Virus record (IMG/VR): IMGVR_UViG_3300033143_002031
Location: 120,745-184,744 of that record
Source of the DNA: a virus
Direction: 5' to 3' (one strand)
DNA length: 64,000 nucleotides
Position 1 is the stretch's first letter, and every line of letters begins with the position of its first letter. The translations under genes were made by a program, and so were the position numbers. A model generated the notes under the pieces. That model was not told the DNA's origin, did no database searches, and saw only the letters and a program-made list of their open reading frames with translations. Shown here in pieces: positions 2,765 to 64,000 of this stretch.

Positions 2765-5110
2765 GTGGATGTGACAGTCACAGGGTGGGCGTGGTTGCCC
2801 AAGGCGGACCTGACGCCAGACCAGATCGTGAACATGGAGCGCATGCTCACGGTTCACCCGCAGAAGATCGGGGACTACCCGGGCGACGAGCCCCTGCCGA
2901 TCCACCTGTATGCGAACGAGAGTGACCGCTTCGGCGTCCCCCGCGAGTTCTTTTTCAGCAATCGGCGTGCGACTCACAACATCGACCTCCAGGTCACAGA
3001 AGGATCTAAGGACTGGTGGCCGGCGGAGTTTGTCGGCCTCCTTCGGACGGAGCAGAAGACCGCTCTGAACGAGGTGGTGGCGATGTTCCGGGCCGGGCGG
3101 ATGGGCGGGATCATCCAAGCCAAGCCGGGCTGGGGGAAGTGCCTGGGTATCGGAACTCCCGTGCTCATGTTCGATGGAGCGATAAAGCCTGTCGAGGACA
3201 TTCAAGATGGCGATCTTCTCATGGGGCCGGACAGCCGACCCCGCCGCGTTTTGTCTACGACACGCGGCACCGGACCGCTATACGAGATCGTTCCGTTGCG
3301 TGGAGAGTCCTGGGTGTGCAACGACGCTCACATCTTGACTCTGGTTCACTCCCTGACAGGAGAAGTACAGGATATTGAGGTGGGGGAGTACCTGAAGCTA
3401 TCGAAGACGGAGCGGCATTACCTCAAGCAGTTTGCTCCGGAGCAAGGGGTCGACTTTCTCTCAGCCGAGCCACTTCTGCTGGACCCGTACTTTTTGGGGG
3501 TGTGGTTCGGGGACGGTACGAAGGGTGCGGACGAGGGGGTCTTGAGGAAGGTAGCGGTCACTAAGCGGGACGAAGAGATCAAGAAGCTGTGCGAGGATGT
3601 GGCGTCGAGGTACGGTCTCCATGTCCGCGTGGAAACTTCTGGAGGTACGCGGTGCCCTACCTACCATCTCACAACTGGCAGGACGGGAGGAGGCCGGAAC
3701 GCGCTTCTCGATCTTTTGCGTCGTGTCGTGGGGGACGCATCTGAGGTCCCTCGTCAGTATCTCACCGCGTCCAGGTCGGATCGAAGGGCACTGCTCGCGG
3801 GTTTTTTGGACTCGGACGGCCACCTCAATAACGGTTATTTCGACATCGTGCAGAAGCGGCGCTCTTATGCGGAGGCCGTCATGTTCCTCGCCCGATCTCT
3901 TGGGTTTCGGGCGAGGGTGTCGGAGAAAATTGTACACGGGGAGGTCTACTGGCGCATGGGTCTGTCCGGCGATTTCTCTACACTTCCCCTGCGTGTGTCC
4001 CGAAAGAAGGCCCCTCCCCGGCGACAGAAAAAGGTGCCTACTCGGACAGGGTTCGATGTTCGTTTTGCGGGGACCGGGGCGTATGCGGGGTTTACGTTGG
4101 ACGGGGACGGGCGGTTCCTCCTCGGAGATTTCACCGTGACTCACAACACGGTCGTGGCGCTGGCTATCGCTGCCGAGCTAGGTGTGCCTACCCTCGTCGT
4201 AGTCCACAAGGAATTTCTGATGGACCAGTGGACGGAGCGGATCGAGAAGTTCCTTCCGGCGGCGAAGATAGGTCGCGTCCAGCAAGACACCTGCGACTTC
4301 CGGGGCAAGACTGTGGTCATGGGCATGGTTCACTCCCTTGGAGGAGAGCAGCCCTACCCTGAAGACCTGTGGGAGTGGCCGGGTTTGGTCATCGTGGACG
4401 AGGTGCACCGTATCGGAGCCCGCACGTGGGCTCCTGTTCCTCCGAGGTTCCAAGCCAAGTACCGCCTCGGATTCACGGCGACGCCCCGGCGCAAGGATGG
4501 CGCCGACGACGTGTTCTGGCAGCACATCGGTCCGATTATCTTCGCGGGGAAAGAGGAGCGATTGAAGCCCGTCGTCAAGCGAGTGTGGACCAAGTTCAAA
4601 CTCGTGAAGACGGACCGCTTCAATCCGAATCTGGCCCCGAAGGCGCTCATCACTCGGTTCCTGGTCAAGAGCCGCTACCGCAACGATCTGATCGCGGAGC
4701 AACTCGTCTCAGCCTTGGAGGCGGGGAGGAAGATCCTTGTGCTGAGTGAGCGCTTGCAGCACCTACAGGACATGGAGTCGCAGCTTCGGAATATGTGGCC
4801 AGCGGTGGCCGGAGACGTTTCGATCGGTCAGTACGTCGGAGGTCGAACCAAGGTCCAACTCGAACGGTCGGCGCAGGCTAAGGTCATCTTCGCCACGTCT
4901 CAGTACGCGGCCGAGGGTCTGGACATCCCGGCGCTGGACACGCTGTTCCTGACCACGCCAATGAGCGACGTGGAGCAGGCGGTGGGTCGTATTCAGAGGC
5001 CGCACCCGGACAAGAAAGATCCTATCGTGGTGGACTTCCGCGATGACTCGATTCCTATGTTCGAGGCGATGGGTAGGAAACGAGAGAAGTTCTACACGAG
5101 GATAGCTTGA
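2765..5110 (+). CDS. Superfamily 2 DNA helicase (UvsW/XPB-like) interrupted by an intein
   Basis: The 781-residue precursor is a helicase of about 445 residues plus a 336-residue intein. The helicase has Walker A (KPGWGK then T after splicing), a DEVH box in IVDEVHRIGA, motif III GFTATPRR, and a C-terminal helicase half with the arginine motif VGRIQRP. This order fits UvsW/RadD-type helicases that remodel forks and recombination intermediates. The intein splits Walker A between Lys125 and Thr462, so ATPase activity needs splicing. The start is a GTG three bases after the preceding gene. A TTGACA promoter for the next gene overlaps the stop codon. The RecA-like and RuvC-like genes nearby fit a recombination-dependent replication role. 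Confidence 0.9.
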   Translation: MDVTVTGWAWLPKADLTPDQIVNMERMLTVHPQKIGDYPGDEPLPIHLYANESDRFGVPREFFFSNRRATHNIDLQVTEGSKDWWPAEFVGLLRTEQKTALNEVVAMFRAGRMGGIIQAKPGWGKCLGIGTPVLMFDGAIKPVEDIQDGDLLMGPDSRPRRVLSTTRGTGPLYEIVPLRGESWVCNDAHILTLVHSLTGEVQDIEVGEYLKLSKTERHYLKQFAPEQGVDFLSAEPLLLDPYFLGVWFGDGTKGADEGVLRKVAVTKRDEEIKKLCEDVASRYGLHVRVETSGGTRCPTYHLTTGRTGGGRNALLDLLRRVVGDASEVPRQYLTASRSDRRALLAGFLDSDGHLNNGYFDIVQKRRSYAEAVMFLARSLGFRARVSEKIVHGEVYWRMGLSGDFSTLPLRVSRKKAPPRRQKKVPTRTGFDVRFAGTGAYAGFTLDGDGRFLLGDFTVTHNTVVALAIAAELGVPTLVVVHKEFLMDQWTERIEKFLPAAKIGRVQQDTCDFRGKTVVMGMVHSLGGEQPYPEDLWEWPGLVIVDEVHRIGARTWAPVPPRFQAKYRLGFTATPRRKDGADDVFWQHIGPIIFAGKEERLKPVVKRVWTKFKLVKTDRFNPNLAPKALITRFLVKSRYRNDLIAEQLVSALEAGRKILVLSERLQHLQDMESQLRNMWPAVAGDVSIGQYVGGRTKVQLERSAQAKVIFATSQYAAEGLDIPALDTLFLTTPMSDVEQAVGRIQRPHPDKKDPIVVDFRDDSIPMFEAMGRKREKFYTRIA
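3140..4147 (+). mobile_element. LAGLIDADG intein in helicase Walker A
   Basis: The intein covers helicase residues 126-461. It opens with Cys (CLGIGTPVLMFDG) and ends TVTHN, followed by Thr as the first residue of the C-extein, so all splicing residues are present. Block B has NDAHIL. Two LAGLIDADG-type helices appear as YFLGVWFGDGT and LLAGFLDSDGHL, each with an acidic Gly-Asp-Gly or Asp-Ser-Asp-Gly end. The homing endonuclease therefore looks intact. Codons here are less GC-rich (for example GGG TTT TTT GGA) than in the flanking helicase, a sign of transfer. Interruption of a Walker A motif is typical of intein insertion at invariant sites. Confidence 0.92.
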
Positions 5111-17460: not shown

Positions 17461-18654
17461 ATGTCACTGGACTTCAACACCGTCTACAAACTCAGGCTCG
17501 GGAGCGACCCGGCTCACCCCGAGATCGTCATGGCTCCTGTGCCGCTCCCTGCGGGGAAGGGGTGGTGGGTCCGTCGCACCTCTCCAGACCATCCGGAACG
17601 CATCCTCCGAGGCGACACGTTCGAGGGGGAGGGTGGGAAGGTCGTCGTGGTGACTAAGGACGGCCCAGCCACCTTCGAGCCTCTGACGCTGGACCTGTGG
17701 AAGGGGATGAACCCTTCCGATTCCTCCCACCTGCCGTTCGACTCGGATGGCGATTTGCAGGAGTTTTACTGGCACGATTGGATGACGGCCTCGGAGGAGA
17801 CCGGGGTGGGGGACATCGACTCGATCTCCAAGGCCCTCGCCATTCAGTACGGGGCTGAGATACAGGAGGGCCGTAAAGCCAAGCCTGGCGAGGTCCACCA
17901 GTGGAGCGACGGCTCCTACCTGAAGCTGCGCGATGGCACCTGGCAGAAGATACCCGGCACGGAGCCCGCCGCCGAGGGCGCGGAGATAATGGCCGAGACG
18001 ATCACGCGACTGAATGGGATGGTCGGAAGCGGCGAGTTGGCTCCCGGGATGGACATTCAGGACCACATCGACCAGGCCCGTGGCGTCGTGGACGCGCATA
18101 GGAAGGGTGTGGTCGCGTTCGGCGCGAAGCTGGAGGAGATGGCCGGGGGTGGCGCGAATGTCCAGGGCCGGGTGAAAACTCTCGGCTCGGTCCTCGGGAA
18201 GATCGCTACCAAGCCGCACTGGTTCAAAAAGGCGGATGACGTGCAGGACGGCACAGGCTACCGGATCATCCACGACAGCCTAGACGACGTGACGCGCTCC
18301 GTCGGGAAGATCAAGAAACAGTTCAAGGTGAAGGCGGAGCGGGACTACATCTCGAACCCGCAGGGCAGCTACCGATCGCACCACCTGATCGTGGAGGACG
18401 AAGACGGCCTGGAGAAAGAGATCCAGGTCCGGACGCGCCGGCAGCACGAGATGGCGGAGTGGTCGCACGACGTGTTCAAGCCACGGACGTCAGAGCAGAA
18501 GAAGAAGGTCGACGCCAACCGCAAAGAGATCGAGAAGACCCAGGCGAAGATTGCCGAGTGGGCATACGAGAAAGACAAGGGCAAGGACCCCGGCCCCCAG
18601 CCGGAGTGCCCCGAGCAGGTGTCCAACGCAGTCGGGTGCCGATCACTAGGGTGA
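17461..18654 (+). CDS. RelA/SpoT-domain protein (alarmone synthetase-like)
   Basis: A 397-residue protein. Residues 141-163 hold a small hook-like motif (GEVHQWSDGSYLKL then DGTWQKI). Residues about 215-345 match the RelA/SpoT nucleotidyltransferase domain: RVKTLGSVLGKI (basic G-loop, 237-248), QDGTGYRII with the metal-binding Asp263, DYISNPQGSYRSHH with the stacking Tyr304, and KEIQVRT with the catalytic Glu320. The key residues appear present, so it could make (p)ppGpp-like or related nucleotides, or pyrophosphorylate another target as toxSAS enzymes do. There is no hydrolase, TGS or ACT domain. It lies one base after the giant kinase-like gene, so the two are co-translated partners. The role in infection is unknown. 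Confidence 0.75.
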   Translation: MSLDFNTVYKLRLGSDPAHPEIVMAPVPLPAGKGWWVRRTSPDHPERILRGDTFEGEGGKVVVVTKDGPATFEPLTLDLWKGMNPSDSSHLPFDSDGDLQEFYWHDWMTASEETGVGDIDSISKALAIQYGAEIQEGRKAKPGEVHQWSDGSYLKLRDGTWQKIPGTEPAAEGAEIMAETITRLNGMVGSGELAPGMDIQDHIDQARGVVDAHRKGVVAFGAKLEEMAGGGANVQGRVKTLGSVLGKIATKPHWFKKADDVQDGTGYRIIHDSLDDVTRSVGKIKKQFKVKAERDYISNPQGSYRSHHLIVEDEDGLEKEIQVRTRRQHEMAEWSHDVFKPRTSEQKKKVDANRKEIEKTQAKIAEWAYEKDKGKDPGPQPECPEQVSNAVGCRSLG

Positions 18655-25821: not shown

Positions 25822-28800
25822 ATGATCGAGTACGAGAATGGCCACTGGCGGTCAGTGCGGACGCCGCAGGAGGGGACCGGGCTCCTGGAGAGAGACCTGG
25901 AGACCCTCACCTCCGAGGAGCGCGAGACGATCGGGGTTCTCATGGCCGAGCTAGCGGACCCCGCCGCGTCTGCCGGGCTCCTCCAGACCATCGGCAACCT
26001 GGAGTGGCTACGCACCCCGGTGGACATGCAAACTTTCTGCATGGACCCGTACTACCTCGGGAACACCTGCGACAACCTGTACCCGAGGCTCCTGGAGGAC
26101 ATCACCGCGCTGTTCGAGGAGGGCTATCGGGAGGCGGTCCTCACGGGCGCGATCGGGTGGGGGAAGACCTTCGCTGCGTCCATCGGCATCTGCCGGCTTC
26201 TGTACATCCTGAGTTGCATGCGGGACCCCCACCGTTCTTTCGGAATCGCAGCCAACTCGAACATCTCGATCGTCTGCCTCTCGGTCAACGAGATCCTGGC
26301 CACCAAGGTCGCCTACGAGAACATCGCTACCAAGATCGAGGCGAGCCCCTACTTTCAGGAAAACTTCCCGTTCGAGAAGACAAAGAAGGAACTTCGCTTC
26401 CCACGCAAGGTGTGGGTGGCCGCGCGTGCGAGCAACGACGGCTCGGTCTTGGGGCTAAATGTTATTGGAGGCTTGCTGGATGAATGTGTGCCAGTCGGGT
26501 CGCTGGTGCTGCTCGGGGATGGTAAACAGGCTCGTGTGGAGACGTTGGTCGGTCGGACCGATGTGGTGGTCGAGACGTTCGACTTCGAGCTAGGTCACGC
26601 TGTGCCAGCACAGGCGTTCGTGAAATGGTCGTCGGAGCAGCCGTGTTACGAGTTGGAGTTGGATAACGGTGGAGTGATGCGCGGGTCGGCCGATCACCCT
26701 GTTGCAGTTCGACAGGTTGACGGCACCTTCACTTTCAACGTAATGGGCGCTATCCTGGACGGGCAGGAGGTTGTGGTTCATGCCCCGATGGACGGAGGAG
26801 CGCCGGAAAGCTCATTCGGAGCGGATGAAGGCTCTGTGGGCGGAGGGACGATACAAGGACCGGGAGATGTCACCCGAGGGTCGCGAGAGGCAGGTTTCGG
26901 CGGTGCGGCAGATGCACGCGGAGGGACGGGGCTTTGTTCCGCCTCCGATGGAGGGGACCGACAACCCGATGTATGGGAAGCGGCTCTCCGACTCGCAGAA
27001 AGAGCGCATAGGCGAAGTGAGCAGAGGCAGGCGGTGGTCGGACGAGGACCGCAAGCGCATGTCCGAGCAGCGGACCGGGAAGCCGGTCCACTCACAAGAG
27101 TTCAAGGACGCGCTGGCCGAACGCAACCGGGAGCGCAAGGGCAAGTTCAAGCACACCGAGGAGACCAAACAGAAGATCTCCGAATCGAACATCTGGAAAC
27201 TCCGCAAGGGGGACTTCCGCTACTTGGGTTGGGCGCAGACGACCAAGGCAGGGCGTGTCGGTTTCCGCAGTCTGTACGAATTGAGAGCCATCGAGTTGTT
27301 GGAGGCGGACTCCTCTGTGACGCGGTTCGAGTACGAGAAGCTGGCGGTCTCCTACTCGTTGAACGGGACGACCCGCCGCACGGTGCCGGACTTTCGAGTC
27401 TGGGGCGACAGGGATCGTGTGATCGAGGTCAAGCCCCGGGGCTTCACCTACCATTGGAAGGAGAAGCTCAAGATGGGTGCCGCGCGGCGCTACTGCGAGG
27501 AGCACGGCTTGGAGTACGTAGTCTGGGACGAGAGCTTTCTGTGGCCCGCGTCGTGTCCAAGAGAGACGTGGGAGTGCAGCCTACCTACGACGTTTCGGTC
27601 CCAGGGTACGAGTGCTTCGTCGTAGACGGGGTTCTCGTCCACAACACCAACTTCATGCCCAAGGCGAGCAAGGGGCAGGACCCGAGGTTCAACCTTCAGG
27701 ACCGGGCCGAGGTGCTGTACAACGCCATGCAGCGCCGGATGAAGTCCAGGTTCGAGCGCAAGGGACGGCTGCCCGGCATTCTGTTCGTCGTCTCCTCGAA
27801 GCAGACCAACGATGACTTCACGGCCAAGCGGGTCAAAGAGTCGATTCTCGACCCGACAGTGTTCGTGCGGGATTACGCTCTTTGGGACGTCAAGCCGGAC
27901 ATCTACTACTCTGACGACTGGTTCCATGTGGTGGTGGGGAACGAGCAAGCTCCCAGTCGAATCATCGAGGTCGATGAAGACCTCGATGAGGTGAGGGTGC
28001 TGCTCCCCGAGGACTGCGTTGTGATCGAAGTTCCGGAGGACTTCCGAGTAGACTTCGAGAAAGACTTGGAAGGGGCCATCCGGGACCTTGCGGGCGTGGC
28101 CACCGTCTCCGTGAGCCCCTACATCCAACGCCGTACCAAGATCGTTGAAGCCATCCGTCCGGGCATGAAGCACCCTTTCAGCGTGGAGGTGTACGACCCC
28201 TCGCAGCCGGGGAGGTTCTACTGGCACAAGATGCTGCGGGCTGCTTCGGACGCCGAGGGCGGCAACAGGCCCATCCTGAGCCCCTACGCTCCCCGACACA
28301 TCCACATCGACCCGTCGATGACAGGCGACTCCACAGGCTTCGCCATGGGGCACATCTCAGGCTGGCGTGAGGTCGTCCGGAGGGACGACGAGGGGAACAA
28401 GTACCCCGAGCGTGCTCCGGAGATCACGTTCGACGTGCTCTTGAAGATCGTCCCGCCTATCGGAGGGGAGATCGTCCTCGGCGAGATACGAAAACTCGTC
28501 TACCAGTTGAGCAAGCACGGGTACATGATCACCTGCGTGTCGATCGACTCGTGGAACTCCGCCGACGCGATCCAGAAGTTGAATCAGCGAGGCTTCAACG
28601 CGATCCAGTTGTCGATCGACAGGACGATGGGACCCTACGACCTTCTGAAGACGGGCCTCTACGAGGACCGCATCTACTACTACGAATACGAGCCTCTCCT
28701 TCGGGAGCTACGCGAGGTCGAGCACGACCGCATGAAGCACAAGGTGGACCACCCGCTGCGTGGCTCGAAGGATATTTCAGACGCAGCGGCCGGGGTCATG

Positions 28801-28998
28801 TGGACGCTCACTGAAAACTCCTCCGCACTGCCTCTCCCCATCCTCCGCAGCGTTCCGCAGAACGGGGATGCGTGGATGCAGGAGCACCAGCAAGCGGCGA
28901 TGGCGAGGAGCTACGGGAGCGAGGACACCTCGGATATGTCGGAGAGTACGGCTTTGCCTCCGTTTCTGGTAGGCTCTGGAAGCGATTGGGGCGACTGA
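25822..28998 (+). CDS. terL: Terminase large subunit interrupted by an intein
   Basis: The 1,058-residue precursor is a 671-residue terminase plus a 387-residue intein. Walker A is GAIGWGKT (109-116) and Walker B is NVIGGLLDE (214-221). The intein begins right after this acid pair. The C-terminal nuclease shows three acids in IHIDPSMTGD, ITCVSIDSWNS and KDISDAAAGVMW, the RNase H-like pattern of phage terminases. It would cut concatemers and pump DNA into the head. The start is ATG 25822, nine bases after the small-subunit gene. Splicing is needed for a working ATPase. Portal and head genes follow. Confidence 0.93.
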   Translation: MIEYENGHWRSVRTPQEGTGLLERDLETLTSEERETIGVLMAELADPAASAGLLQTIGNLEWLRTPVDMQTFCMDPYYLGNTCDNLYPRLLEDITALFEEGYREAVLTGAIGWGKTFAASIGICRLLYILSCMRDPHRSFGIAANSNISIVCLSVNEILATKVAYENIATKIEASPYFQENFPFEKTKKELRFPRKVWVAARASNDGSVLGLNVIGGLLDECVPVGSLVLLGDGKQARVETLVGRTDVVVETFDFELGHAVPAQAFVKWSSEQPCYELELDNGGVMRGSADHPVAVRQVDGTFTFNVMGAILDGQEVVVHAPMDGGAPESSFGADEGSVGGGTIQGPGDVTRGSREAGFGGAADARGGTGLCSASDGGDRQPDVWEAALRLAERAHRRSEQRQAVVGRGPQAHVRAADREAGPLTRVQGRAGRTQPGAQGQVQAHRGDQTEDLRIEHLETPQGGLPLLGLGADDQGRACRFPQSVRIESHRVVGGGLLCDAVRVREAGGLLLVERDDPPHGAGLSSLGRQGSCDRGQAPGLHLPLEGEAQDGCRAALLRGARLGVRSLGRELSVARVVSKRDVGVQPTYDVSVPGYECFVVDGVLVHNTNFMPKASKGQDPRFNLQDRAEVLYNAMQRRMKSRFERKGRLPGILFVVSSKQTNDDFTAKRVKESILDPTVFVRDYALWDVKPDIYYSDDWFHVVVGNEQAPSRIIEVDEDLDEVRVLLPEDCVVIEVPEDFRVDFEKDLEGAIRDLAGVATVSVSPYIQRRTKIVEAIRPGMKHPFSVEVYDPSQPGRFYWHKMLRAASDAEGGNRPILSPYAPRHIHIDPSMTGDSTGFAMGHISGWREVVRRDDEGNKYPERAPEITFDVLLKIVPPIGGEIVLGEIRKLVYQLSKHGYMITCVSIDSWNSADAIQKLNQRGFNAIQLSIDRTMGPYDLLKTGLYEDRIYYYEYEPLLRELREVEHDRMKHKVDHPLRGSKDISDAAAGVMWTLTENSSALPLPILRSVPQNGDAWMQEHQQAAMARSYGSEDTSDMSESTALPPFLVGSGSDWGD
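26485..27645 (+). mobile_element. Intein in terminase Walker B with an out-of-frame endonuclease gene inside
   Basis: The intein covers terL residues 222-608. It starts with Cys (CVPVGSLVLLGDG), has block B GSADHPVAV with its His, and ends YDVSVPGYECFVVDGVLVHN before Thr of the C-extein, so the splicing residues are present. Unlike a normal intein, the middle (about 26785-27545) in the terL frame is a Gly/Arg-rich shadow translation of the endonuclease gene at 26780, which lies in the +1 frame. There is no stop in the terL frame across this stretch. The full-length precursor can therefore be made while the nuclease is translated separately. Confidence 0.9.
26780..27625 (+). CDS. Homing endonuclease (NUMOD3 + PD-(D/E)XK) nested in intein, other frame
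   Basis: A 281-residue protein in the +1 frame relative to terL. It starts at ATG 26780 with AGGAGG at 26765-26770, nine bases upstream. The N-terminal half has repeated NUMOD3-like DNA-binding helices (RRKAHSERMKALWAEG, RLSDSQKERIGEVSRG, RWSDEDRKRMSEQRTGK, EETKQKISESN). The C-terminal half is a PD-(D/E)XK nuclease with Glu in SLYELRAIELL, TVPDFRVWGD and VIEVKPRG, then a helix and EYVVWDES. All catalytic residues are present. The last 30 residues or so overlap the C-terminal splicing blocks in another frame and end at TAG. It probably cuts intein-free terL alleles. Confidence 0.85.
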   Translation: MPRWTEERRKAHSERMKALWAEGRYKDREMSPEGRERQVSAVRQMHAEGRGFVPPPMEGTDNPMYGKRLSDSQKERIGEVSRGRRWSDEDRKRMSEQRTGKPVHSQEFKDALAERNRERKGKFKHTEETKQKISESNIWKLRKGDFRYLGWAQTTKAGRVGFRSLYELRAIELLEADSSVTRFEYEKLAVSYSLNGTTRRTVPDFRVWGDRDRVIEVKPRGFTYHWKEKLKMGAARRYCEEHGLEYVVWDESFLWPASCPRETWECSLPTTFRSQGTSASS

Positions 28999-37295: not shown

Positions 37296-37676
37296 ATGGC
37301 ACGTAGGTTCAGGAAGAAGGCAGGACTGGGGGCTTTGTGCCTCCCTGGTGTCGGTGGCATCGGCAACGACTCGATCGTGGAGGGCGACGAATACGCCCGC
37401 TTCTGCCCGGCCGTACTCGAAGAGGTCTTCGACGAGGCCCCTGTCGTGCCCAAGCCAGTCGCGAAGAAGGTAGCGGCGACACCGCCACCGCCTCCTCCTC
37501 CGGCTCCTCCGGCCGATGACGAAGAGCCCGAAGGCGAGGATGAGGAGCCCGAGCCCCCGAACATGGACTGGCTCAAGTCTGAACTCGTCGAGTATGCCAG
37601 GGGGCTCGACCTCGATGTGGACGGGATGACCAAGCGGCAGATCCTCGGTGCAATCGAGGAAGAAGAGGGAGAGTGA
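37296..37676 (+). CDS. Head-region protein with C-terminal HeH/SAP-like motif
   Basis: A 126-residue protein. The N-terminus is basic with a Gly-rich loop, the middle is a Pro run then Asp/Glu-rich linker, and the C-terminus (about 90-124) forms a helix-extension-helix-like motif: WLKSELVEYARGLDLDVDG then TKRQILGAIEEEE. Such motifs bind DNA or partner proteins. A closely similar ending occurs in the protein at 41618, so the two share a module. Possibly a virion decoration or connector accessory. Confidence 0.6.
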   Translation: MARRFRKKAGLGALCLPGVGGIGNDSIVEGDEYARFCPAVLEEVFDEAPVVPKPVAKKVAATPPPPPPPAPPADDEEPEGEDEEPEPPNMDWLKSELVEYARGLDLDVDGMTKRQILGAIEEEEGE

Positions 37677-62852: not shown

Positions 62853-63599
62853 ATGGGCTTGCACAAGAACATCACGGGCACCGATCAGCACTGGACCTAC
62901 GCGGACCAGACAGCGCGATTGGCGGCGACCGGCTTCGCTGCGGCGGACGTTGGGAAGTCGGCGTACCAGGAGTCCGACAGGACGTGGTGGCTGCTGACGA
63001 ATCACTCTCCAATCGCTTGGGTGGACATCACGGCCGGTGGTTCATCTGGAAACGACGAGAAGGTCAAGGTCAGCGGCGACGACACTGTGGCTGGCTTCCT
63101 CACCGAGAAGCTCACGGCAGCGGCACCCATCACGCTCACCGAGGTCAACCCTGGTGGTGACGAAGACCTCCAGATTGGCCTCGGAGCCATCGATCACGAC
63201 AGCCTTGGTGACGTTACTGCGGACCAGCACCACGACCAGGCTCACGCTATCGACGGGTCTGACCATACGGGGTCGCTTGCTCACTCCGCACTGTCTGGGG
63301 TAGAGGCCGACGACCATCACGCTCACACGAACAAGACCGAGATTGACCTCGTGACGGATGGTGACCACGACGTTCGCACTGATAATCCGCATGGAGTGAC
63401 GGCGGGGCAGGCTGGGGCGGCATCCTCGCCACACGCCATTGACGGCGCTGAACATACGGGCACGCTGGACCACGGTGACCTCGCAGGGCTCGCTGACGAC
63501 GACCACCCAGGGTATCTGCCACTGACCGGCGTCAGGGCCATGACGGGGGACCTGGCCCTCGGGGACCACACTCTGTCTGGGGTAAAGCAAGCTCGTTAG
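62853..63599 (+). CDS. Tail fibre protein, ended early by in-frame TAG
   Basis: This 248-residue product begins with a baseplate-attachment-like region and continues with His/Asp/Gly-rich fibre repeats (HDSLGDVTADQHHDQAH, EADDHHAHTNKTEIDL, TDNPHGVTAGQAGA, EHTGTLDHGDLAGLAD), then MTGDLALGDHTLSGVKQAR. The stop TAG at 63597-63599 comes from a 12-bp tandem duplication. Beyond the stop, the same frame is open to 63920 and encodes a typical fibre C-terminal domain, so the intact gene would span 62853-63920. Without the duplicate, the frame would read on through VKQARFQTEEN. It may be a truncated fibre or be read through. Confidence 0.75.
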   Translation: MGLHKNITGTDQHWTYADQTARLAATGFAAADVGKSAYQESDRTWWLLTNHSPIAWVDITAGGSSGNDEKVKVSGDDTVAGFLTEKLTAAAPITLTEVNPGGDEDLQIGLGAIDHDSLGDVTADQHHDQAHAIDGSDHTGSLAHSALSGVEADDHHAHTNKTEIDLVTDGDHDVRTDNPHGVTAGQAGAASSPHAIDGAEHTGTLDHGDLAGLADDDHPGYLPLTGVRAMTGDLALGDHTLSGVKQAR

Positions 63600-63609
63600 C
63601 AAGCTCGTT
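63586..63609 (+). repeat. 12-bp tandem duplication creating a stop codon
   Basis: AGCAAGCTCGTT occurs twice in a row (63586-63597 and 63598-63609). The second copy shifts nothing in length (12 bases, four codons) but its junction reads TAG. Replication slippage, phase variation or an assembly error could produce it. Confidence 0.85.
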
Positions 63610-63920
63610 TCCAGACCGAGGAGAACAACGGGGATTCTGGGGCCGCGAAGACCATCGACTGGACGCAGGGGAACAAGCAACGGCTCACGCTGACGGCAGC
63701 CTGCATCCTCACCTTCACGGCCCCTGGCGGCCCCGCGAACCTCATGTTCAAGCTCATCCAGGATGCGACGGGTTCGAGGACGGTGACGTGGCCTGCGGCA
63801 GTCCTGTGGCCCGGTGGGACGGCTCCGACGCTATCAACCGGGGCAAATGCTGTCGATCTCGTGGCGCTGTACTACGACGGCACGAATTACTACGGAGTAG
63901 CGAGCCTCGCGTTCGCATAG
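63600..63920 (+). pseudogene. Tail fibre C-terminal domain after the TAG (same frame)
   Basis: The frame continues without a stop for 106 codons to TAG 63918-63920. It starts QARFQTEENNGDSGAAK and then shows the common fibre ending: KTIDWTQGNKQRLTLTA, LTFTAPGGPANLMFKLIQDA, SRTVTWPAAVLWPGG and YYDGTNYYGVASLAF. This is a conserved domain, so selection has kept it in frame. No start codon or ribosome site lies at its head, so it is expressed only by readthrough or not at all. Confidence 0.75.
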
Positions 63921-63932
63921 GAGGAGTTCGAG

Positions 63933-64000
63933 ATGTCGATGACAATCTACGCAGTGCTGATGCTTCCGAACGGCGACCTTCTCAAGCGGGAGTCGTCCCT
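63933..64000 (+). CDS. 5' end of an unknown gene (partial)
   Basis: ATG 63933 with GGAGGAG six bases upstream opens a frame that runs off the window end. The visible residues are MSMTIYAVLMLPNGDLLKRE and two or three more. The protein cannot be identified from this piece. Confidence 0.55.
   Translation, partial: MSMTIYAVLMLPNGDLLKRESS

Follow-up and report, generated by a model that had tools for sequence, protein, structure and literature searches.

Tandem duplications within phage tail-fibre genes are known from Enterococcus phage EfV12-phi1, where in-frame duplications of 1.8 kb have been tied to coevolution with the host (PMC6365445). Short sequences shared by the two ends of a genome are known from the RcD cluster of Rhodobacter phages, whose genomes end with a 12-base 5' overhang, and genome ends can also lie in the structural region, as in RcSimone-Hastad, there via a 77-bp terminal repeat (PMC8601537). 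A third kind of precedent is computational, namely the false short tandem duplications that appear at unmerged contig ends in short-read metagenomes. The locus described here, a 12-bp tandem duplication in a phage tail-fibre gene, resembles each of these in part. It shares with EfV12-phi1 its position within a tail-fibre gene, but it measures 12 bp and creates a stop, whereas the duplications of that phage are 1.8 kb long and in frame. Its length is that of the shared ends of the RcD cluster, and ends in the structural region are possible, as RcSimone-Hastad illustrates, but the site lies inside the fibre ORF of a phage whose terminase relative is a headful packager. Finally, like the computational artefacts, it is shorter than a k-mer, falls exactly at a contig end found in other datasets and is accompanied by join errors in sister contigs; it differs from them in that the same end occurs in two different phages, for which a further cause is needed.

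The window, that is, the whole stretch of 64 kb analysed here, is the last part of a 184,744-base IMG/VR virus record (record positions 120745-184744). It encodes head genes of the T4-like superfamily together with contractile-tail sheath and baseplate genes, and its source, judged by this predicted gene content, is a large myovirus-like phage. The record ends 403 bp past the first copy of the duplicated unit, within the start of the next gene. Since L111 1951-2256, close to where the record starts, holds a homologue of a gene that directly follows the fibre in the relative L004, the map of the record appears to close on itself at the fibre region, with a short gap.

The 12-mer AGCAAGCTCGTT is present in two perfect copies at 63586-63609 (Tandem Repeats Finder: 2.0 copies, 100% match), and a TAG stop is formed where they meet. 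The fibre frame opens at ATG 62853, reads ...SGVKQAR and is closed by TAG 63597-63599 after 248 aa. Past this stop the same frame stays open to 63920 and encodes a C-terminal part that matches phrog_9017, tail fiber protein (E 4.5e-13), a domain common on phage fibres, with 546 relatives in viral contigs. Because the first in-frame start of the post-stop frame is ATG 63747, with none ahead of it, the second part is not an obvious separate gene. The preliminary description had reported a tail-fibre gene cut by a TAG from a 12-bp tandem duplication and followed by a normal fibre ending in open frame, and both statements are confirmed by these results. The coordinates of the features are collected in Table 1.

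Table 1. Features of the split fibre gene and its surroundings, in window positions.
Feature	Position	Strand	Evidence
Fibre shaft part, 248 aa, DHH/collagen-like repeats, closed by TAG	62853..63599	+	Relatives L002, L003, L004
Site of 12 missing bases (residues VMHA; conserved VMHA/VNHT), no microhomology	62890..62891	+	Comparison with L002, L003, L004
Left arm of imperfect inverted repeat, CTCTGTCTGG, 9/10 with 63611-63620	63571..63580	+	
Copy 1 of AGCAAGCTCGTT; last base is the end point of contigs L002 and L003	63586..63597	+	
TAG stop formed where the two copies meet	63597..63599	+	
Copy 2 of AGCAAGCTCGTT	63598..63609	+	Tandem Repeats Finder
Post-stop frame, 106-aa C-terminal tail-fibre domain, own TAG at 63918-63920	63600..63920	+	
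Right arm of inverted repeat, CCAGACCGAG	63611..63620	+	
Start of next gene (homologue of L004 6301-6744), cut by record end	63933..64000	+	

The duplicated unit is not of low complexity and is unique in the record. Moreover, the pair is the sole exact two-copy tandem duplication with a unit of at least 12 bp in the 184.0 of 184.7 kb scanned (low-complexity arrays excluded), and adjacent identical 12-mers are expected by chance only about 0.01 times in the record (about 185,000 x 4^-12). This uniqueness, taken with the low expectation, points to a single event, biological or computational, behind the duplication. The inverted repeat that flanks the two copies is ordinary: similar pairs number 106 in the window, and with z values of -0.66 (DNA) and -0.53 (RNA) for the 9/10 match, a strong hairpin causing read dropout was rejected.

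Three relatives inform on which state is older. The contig L002, from dataset 3300033153, belongs to the same phage, differing over 26 kb by 4 substitutions once gaps are set aside, and L003, from dataset 3300033148, to a relative; the shaft part is 98% identical to that of L002, 79% to that of L003 (protein) and 49% to that of L004. In L004 the gene is intact, with 422 aa and no stop. When both parts of the window's gene are aligned to it, the QAR that ends the first part and the QAR that starts the second share the same columns, and a reading with one copy aligns gaplessly, which bears out the earlier claim that removing one copy restores the full gene. No tandem repeat is present at the equivalent point of L004, and the repeat is not conserved as a locus. 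The C-terminal domain was also compared across 80 relatives, nearly all of which have an open frame immediately ahead of it. The exceptions carry TGA (L032 and L034, where it stands at glycine-like positions, and L046) or, farther upstream, TAA (L086 and L087). Given the intact gene of L004, the gapless fit of one copy and the open frames of the relatives, the two-copy state is, on this alignment, derived.

What the preliminary description had not recorded is that two other contigs end at exactly the base where the duplication has its boundary. The shaft end is found in just two other contigs of the viral collection, L002 and L003, and both terminate precisely at the final base of copy 1 (63597), so that the sole near-identical contig, L002, terminates inside the duplication site and the fibre site is a break point in three assemblies (those of the window's record, L002 and L003). 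When the viral contigs were scanned with patterns for the left and right halves, for the end of the shaft and for the start of the C-terminal part, only L002, L003 and chance matches came back; among these contigs the right flank of the junction occurs in the window's record alone, and no other one was found to cross the junction with one or two copies. A probe with a gene from the record start did not find the contig expected downstream of L002. The final 114 bases of L003 are identical to window 63484-63597, and because the two phages are only about 72% identical in the preceding genes, this suggests a recent exchange between them at the fibre domain boundary. The window phage is also present in 3300033148, alongside the L003 phage. 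For two phages to have equal ends, the datasets must share reads, the assembly graph must fork or the DNA must physically end here.

The quality of the assemblies was assessed by setting the record against the phage's own contigs in 3300033153 and 3300033148. One sister contig, from 3300033153, lacks 58 bp in the helicase gene and 43 bp in another long ORF, the frame being broken each time, and in L002 the gene before the fibre is 51 bp short, in frame; microhomology at these losses is 0, 0 and 1 bp, respectively. L002 also shows NNNN at seven window bases (a mis-sized gap), two 3300033153 contigs have an overlap of 46 bp that was left unmerged (37367-37412), and differences from T or A to G cluster within 30-90 bp in sister contigs, clusters that look like stretches covered by a single read, i.e. 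low coverage. The window is itself affected, with 12 bases missing from the fibre gene, 0.7 kb upstream of the duplication, where L002 and L003 have VMHA and L004 has VNHT.

On balance we lean, by a little, towards the duplication being an assembly seam, in which two contig ends with a 12-bp overlap were joined without merging it. In this scheme the phage would have been assembled from low-coverage metagenomes, the left contig ending at 63597 and the right one beginning at 63586; the ends would thus overlap by 12 bp, less than the assembler's word size, and a flush join that does not merge the overlap would print the 12 bases twice and so create the TAG. We infer that the assembler of the window made such a join, and that no read has two copies. 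This reading is preferred because L002 and L003 both break off on the very last base of copy 1, because the sister contigs carry join-type errors and an unmerged overlap and their T/A-to-G clusters have the look of low coverage, because the window lacks 12 conserved bases a short way upstream with no microhomology, because the record ends so soon after copy 1 despite a map that apparently closes there, and because the gene of L004 is intact and the one-copy reading gapless. The fibre gene is then probably whole in the actual phage, and the duplication is probably not a real feature of its biology. Against this, a chance coverage gap alone leaves the identical ends of two contigs unexplained, there are no Ns at the join, and widely used short-read assemblers as a rule merge overlaps of 12 bp when read pairs back them. 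If the seam is accepted, in-frame stops in phage genes from metagenomes need checking against the contig ends of sister assemblies before switches are claimed. Of the three readings that the preliminary description had offered, assembly error is therefore the best supported, by the contig ends and the join errors in sister contigs.

The exact contig ends would also be accounted for if the 12-bp duplication were real in part of the phage population, a reading that we regard as possible but clearly less probable than a seam. The fibre would be cut to 248 aa with loss of the C-terminal domain, genomes with one and two copies would coexist, so that the assembly graph forks directly behind copy 1, one branch continuing with A and the other with T, and slippage losing one copy could restore the frame. 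This single hypothesis covers both the two copies and the ends of L002 and L003, with no second cause needed, and several observations are in keeping with it: the window phage and the L003 phage occur together in 3300033148 and share their identical 114 bp up to the fork, the unit is complex and unique in the record, and, as at a phase-variable tandem-repeat (contingency) locus, the second copy puts a TAG in frame. Tandem duplications of phage tail fibres do arise (PMC6365445), and a polymorphic duplication, if true, would add a new example to a known kind and would let a receptor-binding fibre be turned on and off simply and reversibly. However, the low-coverage stretches in the sister assemblies make a resolved fork of two alleles less likely, a further odd indel of 12 bp affects this gene in the window (62890/62891), and the viral contigs hold no other sequence that crosses the junction in either state. 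As for the slippage switching proposed earlier, coexisting alleles would explain where the contigs end, but nothing shows a switch, and neither invertase, integrase nor reverse transcriptase was found in the record. A fibre switched by a recombinase, of the Mu Gin type, is unsupported, with no PF00239 or PF00589 match in the record (the short gap between the record ends lying outside the search) and no exact inverted 12-mer; the same holds for a diversity-generating retroelement, with no PF00078 match in the record.

A physical end would be another source of equal contig ends. If the linear virion DNA ended here with 12-nt 5' cohesive overhangs that were filled in at library preparation, an end-to-end join would duplicate the 12-mer, and the fibre gene would be whole solely upon circularisation of the genome, placing a genome terminus within a fibre gene. 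Several contigs (L002 and L003, from two phages) share their end base, as at the ends of a cos phage, and the overlap is exactly 12 bp; AGCAAGCTCGTT matches its reverse complement at 8/12 positions (about 4% by chance, an estimate), some phages usually carry 5' overhangs of 11-13 bases, and termini located in the structural gene region are on record (PMC8601537). We nevertheless consider cohesive ends unlikely, as the site falls within a coding region, with the terminase gene 35 kb away, the contigs of relatives continue at least 8 kb past the baseplate gene in 6/7 cases, L004 spans the gene, the terminase relative RcDurkin (34% identity) packages by a P1-type headful, and the end of the record 403 bp further on is left unexplained. 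A contig starting exactly at AGCAAGCTCGTTTCC would be expected of a cohesive end or a fork; among the viral contigs the right half occurs in the window's record alone. The broader idea that two phage species use these 12 bp as a functional break point, as a fibre on/off switch via gain and loss of 12 bp or as a cohesive end inside a receptor-binding fibre gene, is in our judgement similarly improbable.

The open frame on both sides of the TAG would in addition fit programmed expression of two forms, with ribosomes sometimes passing the stop to give short and long fibres, and a C after the stop (TAG CAA) is a context that is leaky in some systems. We give this very little credence: the relatives have no stop at this point, a conserved readthrough site is not expected on a recent duplication, and TAG is an ordinary stop in this phage, terminating 62/158 long ORFs, neighbouring genes included, with no CTA-anticodon tRNA among those listed by ARAGORN in the record (G000 120001-120744, 744 b, left out of the scan). 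Recoding or suppression of TAG is on these grounds ruled out in practice. A target-site duplication is just as hard to credit. Here other phages of the population would carry a mobile element between the two copies, which in the window would have been lost, or dropped by the assembler; the contigs break off right at the flank, which is also how contigs behave at repeated elements, and 12 bp falls in the range of some transposon target duplications. Yet no element is seen, no viral contig besides the window's record holds the right flank, and two phages are unlikely to have received an insertion at one and the same base.

Some further features of the phage and its relatives were noted. A genome-contig scan gave only distant repeat matches, in Lokiarchaeota MAG contigs; L125 and L126 hold a short stretch resembling the DHH-type repeats of the fibre. 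In L032 (1378, 1471) and L034 (2851, 2944) in-frame TGA codons stand at glycine-like fibre positions, which suggests phages that read TGA as glycine. Within the window, a likely large terminase gene (25822-28998) has an intein-like interruption at about residues 232-608, with a Pfam score below the curated cut-off, a helicase gene (2765-5110) carries a Hint and LAGLIDADG homing endonuclease insert (intein), and an ORF at 17461-18654 has a RelA/SpoT domain. Outside it, the phage record holds about 40 tRNA genes (L115 9489-15197 and L113 6248-6407), 39 of them in one cluster; the record also has a predicted tmRNA gene (L114 1279-1687) with the tag peptide ANSDSYPEVRAAA.
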